From positions 1 through 64,000 of the forward strand of contig JAGUYG010000016.1 of the NCBI GenBank assembly GCA_020061465.1: a stretch of 64,000 bases of DNA. Reading direction: 5' to 3'. A model generated the notes under the pieces. It saw only the letters and a list, made by a program, of their open reading frames with translations, did not search any database and was not told where the DNA came from. The position numbers and the translations under genes were made by a program. Below, piece by piece: positions 23,839 to 32,220 of the stretch. Within the stretch, counting starts at the first letter, position 1, and the number at the start of each line of letters is the position of its first letter. This DNA comes from Ignavibacteriales bacterium (lineage in GTDB: Bacteria; Bacteroidota; Ignavibacteria; Ignavibacteriales; Ignavibacteriaceae).

Positions 23839-24085
23839 GAACTCTATCCAACCTTTCCCTTATCCAATGGATCCATAGGACAAAGGGAAAGGCTTATTTG
23901 CTGTAATGACATATTATAATCTTCTTAACTTTTTATTTGCATCGAAAAAATCGGTTTACTCAATAATGAACTGATAAGGAAGGATAAGAATAGGTTTTAT
24001 TGACAATCTAAAGATCCTACGGACAAGTCTCTCTCCTCTTAGGAGAGAGATTATCCCGAAGGGATGCCTTCGGCAGAGTGAGGTC
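23839..24085. repeat. Composite intergenic repeat, copy A
   Basis: Two blocks lie in this 596-bp gene-free stretch. Block 1 (23839-23892) has arms CCTTTCCCTT and AAGGGAAAGG around a GGATCCATAGGA core. Block 2 (24026-24085) has TCTCTCTCCT/AGGAGAGAGA followed by CCGAAGG/CCTTCGG hairpins. Both blocks recur, in the same order but opposite orientation, at 31556-31739. No ORF with a ribosome-binding site is seen here. Confidence 0.85.
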
Positions 24086-29169: not shown

Positions 29170-30561
29170 ATGATAACTGATTCGATAGTGAAATTATCTA
29201 TTTCCACTGTTTGCATAATTGTTCTGTTCTTAACCGTGCTTTCTCCTTTGTCATTCGGCGGAAATGAGCGGCAAAACAAAAAAGAGCTTGCCGATTCGGT
29301 AAAAAAAGAATTTCTTCATGCGTGGAACGGTTATAAAAAATATGCATGGGGGTTTGATGCCCTTAAGCCTTTGAGCAAATCCGGGCACAATTGGTACAGC
29401 GAATCTCTTTTAATGACACCCATCGACGCATTCGATACAATGATTCTAATGGACTTAAAAGATGAAGCCGCTGAAGCAAAGGAATTAATTTTAAATAATC
29501 TTTCCTTTGATAAAGATATTTTTGTTCAAAATTTTGAAATAACTATTCGTCTGTTGGGCGGACTGCTTTCATGCTACCAATTAGATGGCGATGAACGATT
29601 TCTTCAGTTTGCCAAAGATCTTGGCAATCGGCTTCTTCCGGTATTTAATTCACCAACCGGAATGCCTTATGTGATGGTTAATCTTAAAACAGGTGAAACA
29701 CGCGGAAAAATAAACAATCCTGCAGAGATTGGTACATTGATGATTGAATTCGGAGTACTAAGCAAACTTACTTCAAATAATGTTTATTACGATAAAGCGA
29801 AGAAAGCCATTTCCGCACTGTTTGAAAGAAGATCGGCAATTGACCTTGTGGGAACAACCATAAATGTAGAGACCGGCGAGTGGCAAAATAAAGAAAGTCA
29901 TTTAAGCGGTATGATTGATTCTTACTACGAATATCTGCTTAAAAGCTGGCTGCTGTTTGACGACAGTAATTTTAAAGAAATGTACGAAATAAGTATCGCT
30001 GCTGTAAAAAAATATTTGACCGATAACCGGGATACAGGATTATGGTTCGGGCGAGCTGATATGAATACGGGTGAAAGAACAGCCACTAAATTCGGTGCGC
30101 TCGATGCTTTCTTTCCTGCAGTGCTTGCTTTGGGAGGCGATATAACAACCGCTGAAGAGCTTCAGAAATCTTGTTTTAAAATGTGGAATCTTTACGATAT
30201 CGAACCCGAACAAATTGACTATGCAAGTATGAATGTACTTTATGCTTCCTATGTACTAAGACCCGAAATAATTGAATCTGCTTACTACCTGTATAGTTTA
30301 ACAAAAAATGATAAATACTTACACATGGGAAAGAAGATGTTTGGGGATATCGTAAAGCATTGCAGAACCGAGTCGGGTTATGCCGCTCTAAAAAGCGTGA
30401 TAACAAAAGAAAAAGATGATTCGATGGAGAGTTTTTTTCTTGCCGAAACGTTAAAGTATTTTTATTTGTTATTTGCGCCTTCGGATAAAATCGATTTAAG
30501 CATGGTAATATTTAATACCGAAGCTCACCCGATGTTTAAGAGTTTTATTATAAAAAAATGA
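29170..30561 (+). CDS. GH47 alpha-mannosidase-like enzyme
   Basis: A 463-residue glycoside hydrolase of family GH47 (class I alpha-1,2-mannosidase), with an N-terminal signal or anchor segment (~10-30), so it acts outside the cytoplasm. The full set of family landmarks is present: HAWNGYKKYAWGFDALKP (50-67), E123 in NFEITIRLLGG, D250 in MIDSYYEYLLKSW, E366 in LRPEIIES, E420 in DSMESFFLAETLKY and the calcium-binding T450 in FNTEAHPM. These align with the catalytic acid/base residues and Ca2+ ligand of eukaryotic ER mannosidase I. The family is mainly eukaryotic, with few bacterial members. The likely substrate is alpha-1,2-mannose in glycans taken from hosts, fungi or other organisms. Confidence 0.93.
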   Translation: MITDSIVKLSISTVCIIVLFLTVLSPLSFGGNERQNKKELADSVKKEFLHAWNGYKKYAWGFDALKPLSKSGHNWYSESLLMTPIDAFDTMILMDLKDEAAEAKELILNNLSFDKDIFVQNFEITIRLLGGLLSCYQLDGDERFLQFAKDLGNRLLPVFNSPTGMPYVMVNLKTGETRGKINNPAEIGTLMIEFGVLSKLTSNNVYYDKAKKAISALFERRSAIDLVGTTINVETGEWQNKESHLSGMIDSYYEYLLKSWLLFDDSNFKEMYEISIAAVKKYLTDNRDTGLWFGRADMNTGERTATKFGALDAFFPAVLALGGDITTAEELQKSCFKMWNLYDIEPEQIDYASMNVLYASYVLRPEIIESAYYLYSLTKNDKYLHMGKKMFGDIVKHCRTESGYAALKSVITKEKDDSMESFFLAETLKYFYLLFAPSDKIDLSMVIFNTEAHPMFKSFIIKK

Positions 30562-31285: not shown

Positions 31286-31423
31286 CGGGCGCATAAATTA
31301 ATTGCTTTCATTCGGTAACTCATAAAATAACAGTCCAGACTTTGTATCAAAAAAAAGCGTGGTCTAATTTTTCCTCTTCTCATAGTATTAATAAATAATC
31401 AATTATAATAAAAGGAGCTCATC

Positions 31424-31477
31424 ATGAGAAATACTTCCTTTCTGTTCATCGTGCTACTACGTAAAAAAATGTTGTAA
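31424..31477 (+). pseudogene. 5' fragment of a split secreted-protein gene
   Basis: A strong ribosome-binding site (AAAGGAG) precedes an ATG that reads MRNTSFLFIVLL, the start of a signal peptide, and then runs into a stop inside inserted sequence. The missing remainder resumes in frame at 31807. Joining 31424-31450 to 31807-32220 restores a clean signal peptide and a 146-residue protein. Confidence 0.75.
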
Positions 31478-31806
31478 TTTTAACAAACTTTTCCGAAGGA
31501 TCAGTCTGATTTGTTACTTTTCCAAAGGATCAATCTGATAATTTTCCCGGTACTTAAACTCTCTCTGCCGAAGGCATCCCTTCGGGATAATCTCTCTCTT
31601 AAAAAAAGAGAGACTTATTATCAGTGCTAACTTTGTATTTGTATTTCTGTCAGAACTGCGAATAAAAAGAAATCACTATTAATAAACCCTTCTCTTGTTC
31701 CTATGGATCCTTTGGATAAGAGAAGGGTAGGGTTGAGTTCTACTTTTCCGATCGAAGATTCCTTTGGAAAGGATCAGCCTGATTGTTTGTAGCTTTCTGC
31801 TACGCT
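31459..31806. mobile_element. 348-bp non-coding repeat-rich insertion with 8-bp flanking direct repeat
   Basis: GTGCTACT occurs at 31451-31458 and again at 31807-31814, bracketing 348 bp of non-coding sequence. The insert contains three copies of an AAGGATCA(G/A)(T/C)CTGAT-type motif (about 31497, 31527, 31769) and blocks 1 and 2 of the composite repeat also seen at 23839-24085. Removing the insert plus one 8-bp copy restores an open gene. This is the signature of transposition with target duplication, MITE-like, with no transposase of its own. Clear terminal inverted repeats were not found. Confidence 0.75.
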
Positions 31807-32220
31807 GTGCTACTTTTTGTCCTGGTTTTACTAAACAAAACCATGTACTCTCAAGCTCAAACGGGGAATGCTGTAGTTATAACAACTTTGGAACTCAACT
31901 TGGACTCGGGCGGAACTATAGCAGAGTTTGATTCATTAAGTGCTCTTTATACAGAGAAAGTAATAAAGAGGAATGAGCACATTCTCAGTCATCGCACAGT
32001 AAGACATTGGTGGGGGCATAATAATCGTGATTTTTTAGTGATCTATGAGGTAAAAGGCTGGGAAGATATTCCAAAAGCCAATCAACGGAATAATGAATTG
32101 TTTAGGGAATCCTGGGAAACCCCTGAAGAAAGAAAACAATTTAATGATGCGTACAATAAATATTTTACAGGTAATCACTCTGACGAGATTTATCAAGAGG
32201 TAAAGAGCGGAAGAAAATAA
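31783..32220 (+). CDS. Small secreted protein, 5' end rebuilt by insertion
   Basis: The main part of the gene interrupted at 31451. Codons 31807 onward encode the rest of a signal peptide (VLLFVLVLLNKTMYSQAQ) and a mature domain of ~115 residues resembling a dimeric alpha/beta-barrel-like fold (VVITTLELNLDSGGTIAEFDS ... DFLVIYEVKGWEDIPKANQ), with NKYFTGNHSDEIY near the end. It may still be expressed: a TTG at 31783 has AAAGGA nine nt upstream, supplied by the insertion, and gives a new hydrophobic leader. Otherwise it is a pseudogene. Function is unknown. Confidence 0.6.
   Translation: MFVAFCYAVLLFVLVLLNKTMYSQAQTGNAVVITTLELNLDSGGTIAEFDSLSALYTEKVIKRNEHILSHRTVRHWWGHNNRDFLVIYEVKGWEDIPKANQRNNELFRESWETPEERKQFNDAYNKYFTGNHSDEIYQEVKSGRK

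Follow-up and report, generated by a model that had tools for sequence, protein, structure and literature searches.

In the window, the 64,000-nt stretch of Ignavibacteriales DNA that was analysed, a small secreted-protein gene has very probably been interrupted by a non-autonomous, hairpin-rich composite repeat of MITE-like character, which entered the coding sequence behind its tenth codon, a GTG. Comparison with homologues shows that this cut off the ribosome-binding site, the start codon and the N-terminal half of the signal peptide from the remainder of the gene. At the level of sequence, we regard this as a clean example of a conserved gene for an exported protein being broken by a structured bacterial repeat, and the insert shows how such repeats grow by nesting of smaller hairpin units. 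The interrupted gene is laid out as follows:

31410–31426, + strand: ribosome-binding site AAAAGGAG (31410–31417) and ATG (31424–31426), read from the sequence; the start matches that of 12 examined homologues.
31424–31453, + strand: first ten codons, MRNTSFLFIV, which make up the N-terminal half of the signal peptide and include the GTG at 31451–31453; from the in-frame fusion and the homologue leaders.
31454–31809 (equivalently 31451–31806), + strand: inserted 356-bp repeat, CTACTACG...GCTACGCTGTG; from the family ends, the matches elsewhere in the genome and RNA folding.
31475–31477, + strand: stop codon, contributed by the insert, at which the original frame terminates after 17 codons; from translation.
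31810–32220, + strand: remainder of the gene, with the rest of the signal peptide and a mature ABM/NIPSNAP-like domain; from homologues and predicted structure.

Deleting 31451–31806 in silico brings MRNTSFLFI and VLLFVLVLLNKTMYSQ into one reading frame downstream of AAAAGGAG, as the first-pass annotation had claimed, and yields an open frame of 146 codons starting MRNTSFLFIVLLFVLVLLNKTMYSQ. With the insert in place, the ATG frame runs for 17 codons only (MRNTSFLFIVLLRKKML). Of 79 other family genomes, 16 contain homologues of the 137 residues from 31807, and so do three named GTDB records, among them Ignavibacteriales bacterium UBA6490 and BMS3Abin03. No interruption is seen in the coding sequence of any of the 12 homologues examined, each of which begins with ATG and has a 24–26-residue leader ending in AQ followed by the mature domain, with an SD-like motif in most; the window gene minus its insert has the same layout. 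All 12 invariant columns of the homologue alignment are kept in its mature domain. Considering that 12 related genes are uninterrupted and each carries a leader of this kind, the splitting of the gene by the insert is well supported, and the earlier description of a dispersed non-coding repeat dividing a signal-peptide gene holds.

The search for the uninterrupted gene in related genomes thus succeeded at the level of homologues, the closest being 63% identical, and failed at the level of an empty allele from the same species or genus, none of which was found; synteny of the neighbouring genes with those of the homologues was not detected. The missing close-relative empty site is a point in favour of the 356 bp being ancestral spacer or an assembly artefact. 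Such an origin has next to no probability, given the uninterrupted homologues, the exact restoration of the frame upon removal and the presence of the same sequence at many unrelated sites; moreover, both flanks encode parts of one conserved gene, which makes a chimeric joint unlikely.

The product of the gene is predicted to be a small secreted dimeric alpha/beta-barrel protein of the ABM/NIPSNAP-like kind. Its model has a mean pLDDT of 86.8, and its Foldseek matches (best E 2.5e-5, TM by target 0.69) belong among the ferredoxin-like dimeric proteins of ABM/NIPSNAP type, so that the predicted ferredoxin-like fold resembles solved dimeric alpha/beta-barrel members; a Pfam search of the product gave zero families above cut-off. 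Elsewhere in the window, 29170–30561 encodes a member of glycosyl hydrolase family 47 (Pfam E 1.2e-127), which is best known from eukaryotes.

The octamer GTGCTACT is present at 31451–31458 and at 31807–31814, the two copies being separated by 348 bp, as had been reported. The initial reading of these octamers as an 8-bp target duplication fared less well when the ends of the family were compared. Left and right ends were gathered separately; the left set had 22 rows, one of them spurious, leaving 21 genuine ends. Twenty of the 21 start with GTG, mostly as GTGCTACTACG (GTG, then CTACTACGTT), in unrelated flanks. The 22 right ends mostly read GCTACGCYGTG followed by variable bases, of which the fourth and fifth are preferentially C and T. 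Both ends are known for nine copies (C96, which is the window copy, C27, C106, C120, C29, C97, C70, C21 and C7), many others sitting at contig ends, and among the nine only the window copy has an identical octamer on both sides. At the three variable bases, left and right agree at 13 of 30 positions, compared to a shuffled mean of 13.1 (permutation P = 0.64, ten pairs); one of the ten pairs, C42, is insecure on inspection, and without it the window copy is the sole identical pair. Beyond GTG and the CT preference, the left and right flanks show no agreement. An 8-bp duplication was rejected as a rule of the family by this comparison: GTGCTACTACG is the usual left end, and GTG alone is common to most copies.

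A true 8-bp duplication, here GTGCTACT, could still have arisen by transposition with a target preference for GTGNNNCT and have decayed in older copies. The perfect octamer of the window copy is consistent with this, as are the agreement of C120 at seven of eight bases (GTGATACT/GTGATTCT) and the partial copies C7 and C54, both with GTGCTGCT, though these are possibly different copies. We consider it improbable, however, as near-constant left ends facing variable right ends are unexpected for two copies of one duplication, and an excess of pairing is lacking. The same observations place the left CTACT within the element and limit the duplication to GTG at most. Under the preferred insertion after GTG, the five further matching bases would reflect a chance fit between the target and the left end that the element usually has. 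Because the empty site is the same under both readings, the conclusion that the gene was split does not depend on the length of the duplication. An empty paralogous site for copy C29 was sought and not found.

The trend at the target is [TC]T[TC][AT]GTG-NNN-CT, with GTG at both ends of the insert. It is very unlikely that a successively nested, lineage-specific repeat moves as one unit in a site-specific manner, with a target CTGTG-NNN-CT resembling its own joined ends, and has in addition supplied a new element-encoded leader here. The repeat spreads as a block: in this genome, approximately 21 left ends and 22 right ends occur with flanks that are unrelated to one another. Runs such as CTGTGGCACTCTGTGTAAC and GTCTTAGTGTTTTAGTGGC occur beside several right ends (right flanks of L048, L049, L050 and L043); these runs look like another short intergenic repeat and may have a role as targets.

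The inserted stretch matches approximately 50 other places in the same genome. Of 80 genomes searched, this one alone has clear matches to the outer ends, and in the 79 family relatives none rose above chance level; weak matches of 20–45 bp to the A/T-rich left end in 19 other genomes (E 3e-4 to 0.01) were treated as chance. Among 60 other family genomes, 18 have the inner element. Among the nine complete copies, the window copy is the one that lies inside an open frame of at least 80 codons. The nearest partial copies are two at 93–95% identity over 125–184 bp and a third at 87% over 200 bp. With such partial copies 87–95% identical, the insertion is young compared with the family as a whole and not demonstrably ongoing, and the original phrase 'in the act of moving' overstates the case, a same-species empty allele not having been found. 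Many contigs of this genome end within this repeat family, which makes the repeat a main cause of breaks in the assembly. We found nothing specific in the literature on repeats of Ignavibacteria.

The insert is highly structured and layered, combining an outer frame, a two-hairpin inner element and several double-hairpin units of 17–22 bp. The folding energy of the whole insert as RNA is −113.4 kcal/mol, compared to −75.5 kcal/mol for shuffles (z = −8.6). The following parts were delineated:

31556–31740, + strand: inner element, usually GAACTC...GAGTTC, with two hairpins and, in this copy, micro-units; from alignment and fold of 24 copies.
31593–31613, + strand: first inner hairpin, terminator-like (TCTCTCTTAAAAAAAGAGAGA); from the fold.
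31687–31727, + strand: second inner hairpin, stem CCCTTCTCTT / AAGAGAAGGG; from compensatory changes in other copies.
31492–31509, + strand: double-hairpin micro-unit TCCGAAGGATCAGTCTGA, with a similar unit at 31521–31538; from presence or absence at matching places in other copies.
31567–31588, + strand: micro-unit GCCGAAGGCATCCCTTCGGGAT, missing from several other copies; from alignment.
31699–31716, + strand: micro-unit TCCTATGGATCCTTTGGA, occupying the second hairpin's loop and missing from most other copies; from alignment.
31789–31803, + strand: right subterminal hairpin GTAGC-TTTCT-GCTAC; from DNA folding.

In the alignment of the 24 inner elements both hairpins are conserved, and 5 of 21 pairs show compensatory changes. 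One terminator-like hairpin was found in the insert, compared to 0.5 expected by chance. An Rfam search returned sub-threshold matches only, none above the gathering score. In the least modified copies (L065, L069/L090), TACTTTT brackets the inner element on both sides, which suggests that the inner element was once inserted into the outer frame; the copies bracketed in this way may all descend from one insertion event. The inner element recurs in this genome in another shared setting, between ...CATATCTGTCCAAAATAAATT and CATTGTAGTGTAAAAACAG... (L016, L018, L019, L029, L030, L012 and L094), and so is part of two or more composite repeat families. The window has another, more divergent copy at 23839–24085 on the − strand, with double-hairpin micro-units of its own; the outer frame was not seen there.

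The micro-units, each with two small hairpins (TCCGAAGGATCAGTCTGA, TCCTATGGATCCTTTGGA, TCCGTAGGATCTTTAGAT, TCCAAAGGACTCATTTGAG, GCCGAAGGCATCCCTTCGGGAT and others), are found in some copies and cleanly missing from others. When copies are compared, at least five kinds of these 17–22 bp units prove to be present or absent at exact positions, much as very small mobile elements would be. A general scan of the window for double hairpins revealed no excess over a Markov background, so that the case for micro-units derives from presence and absence in aligned copies and not from abundance. In consisting of two small hairpins and in being present or absent at exact places in matching sequences, the units resemble the double-hairpin elements known from mitochondrial genomes and the very small mobile repeats found in cyanobacteria; here, unlike in those systems, several sequence types are nested in a larger repeat of an Ignavibacteria-related bacterium. 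Exact presence or absence of the units could make the movement of elements of approximately 18 bp testable in a free-living bacterium.

At its right end the insert carries a proposed new translation start:

31768–31785, + strand: AAAGGA (31768–31773) followed by TTG (31783); from the sequence, the neighbouring stretch recurring in most right ends.

Both motifs are where the first-pass annotation had placed them, and the TTG opens a frame of 145 codons in frame with the remainder of the gene. One proposal is that the insert thereby rebuilt a working signal peptide and that the protein is still exported. In favour of this proposal are the open frame, the hydrophobic core of the predicted leader, the retention of the 12 invariant mature-domain residues and a Yersinia precedent for a signal peptide formed by a MITE, a YPAL copy having been reported as part of the signal peptide of YPO1552 (PMC2229807). 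Nevertheless, the predicted TTG leader has no K or R in its first eight residues, compared to at least one in the fused window leader and in 10 of 10 scored homologue leaders. A terminator-like hairpin lies upstream within the insert, and the conserved residues would equally be left intact by a young insertion. The AGGATC...TTG stretch is element sequence common to most right ends, and so is no adaptation to this site. A rebuilt leader is thus not supported and is, in our estimation, unlikely; translation from 31783 itself is possible. Because the original frame ends after 17 codons, and other starts would give a leader without a basic residue or a leaderless protein, we infer that the split gene is probably crippled.

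Presumably, a transposase or recombinase acting in trans moves the element, and the Y1_Tnp and IS110 families were searched for a link to its ends. An IS110 origin was rejected, as the transposase is absent from the genome (no PF02371 match). The genome has ten Y1_Tnp genes, and element ends were not found near any of the ten loci; a Y1/RAYT link was rejected on this ground. A derivative of IS200/IS605, mobilised by a Y1 transposase and inserted 3' of GTG without target duplication, is possible but doubtful. The ten Y1_Tnp genes, the absence of terminal inverted repeats, the subterminal right hairpin and a fixed short motif adjoining the insertion are compatible with it. None of the ten Y1 loci has these ends nearby, however, and the mechanism would not predict the CT preference that follows the site. 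The right subterminal DNA fold is stable (z = −4.1), but the left one does not exceed shuffles in stability (consensus z = −0.5, window copy z = 0.5).

Judged from its sequence, the element is best filed as MITE-like and assigned to neither of the two IS-derived families, IS200/IS605 or IS110. It is dispersed, non-coding and multicopy, as are MITEs; its outer ends, CTACTACG... and ...GCTACGCYGTG, are not terminal inverted repeats, the inner element on its own has short GAACTC/GAGTTC ends, and ends common to an autonomous element were not seen beside the ten Y1 genes, IS110 being absent. The genome's Y1 transposase genes thus lack the ends that an IS200/IS605 derivative would have in common with them. 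REP or GTAG-tagged palindromes and RAYT/Y1 systems similarly show a GTAGC...GCTAC hairpin near one end, and Y1_Tnp genes are present here; in contrast to those systems, the unit is much larger and the Y1 genes lack these flanking ends (PMC3733652). The bacterial MITEs and small mobile repeats, such as Correia/NEMIS, RUP, ERIC and Yersinia YPAL/RU-2 (PMC2229807), are likewise non-coding, dispersed, structured and mostly intergenic, sometimes lying in genes, whereas the present family has no outer terminal inverted repeats, a duplication of at most GTG and a length of approximately 70–380 bp reached through nesting. As far as sequence comparison goes, the insertion is real and of a familiar kind, like those of bacterial MITEs, by a lineage-specific repeat with a layered anatomy.
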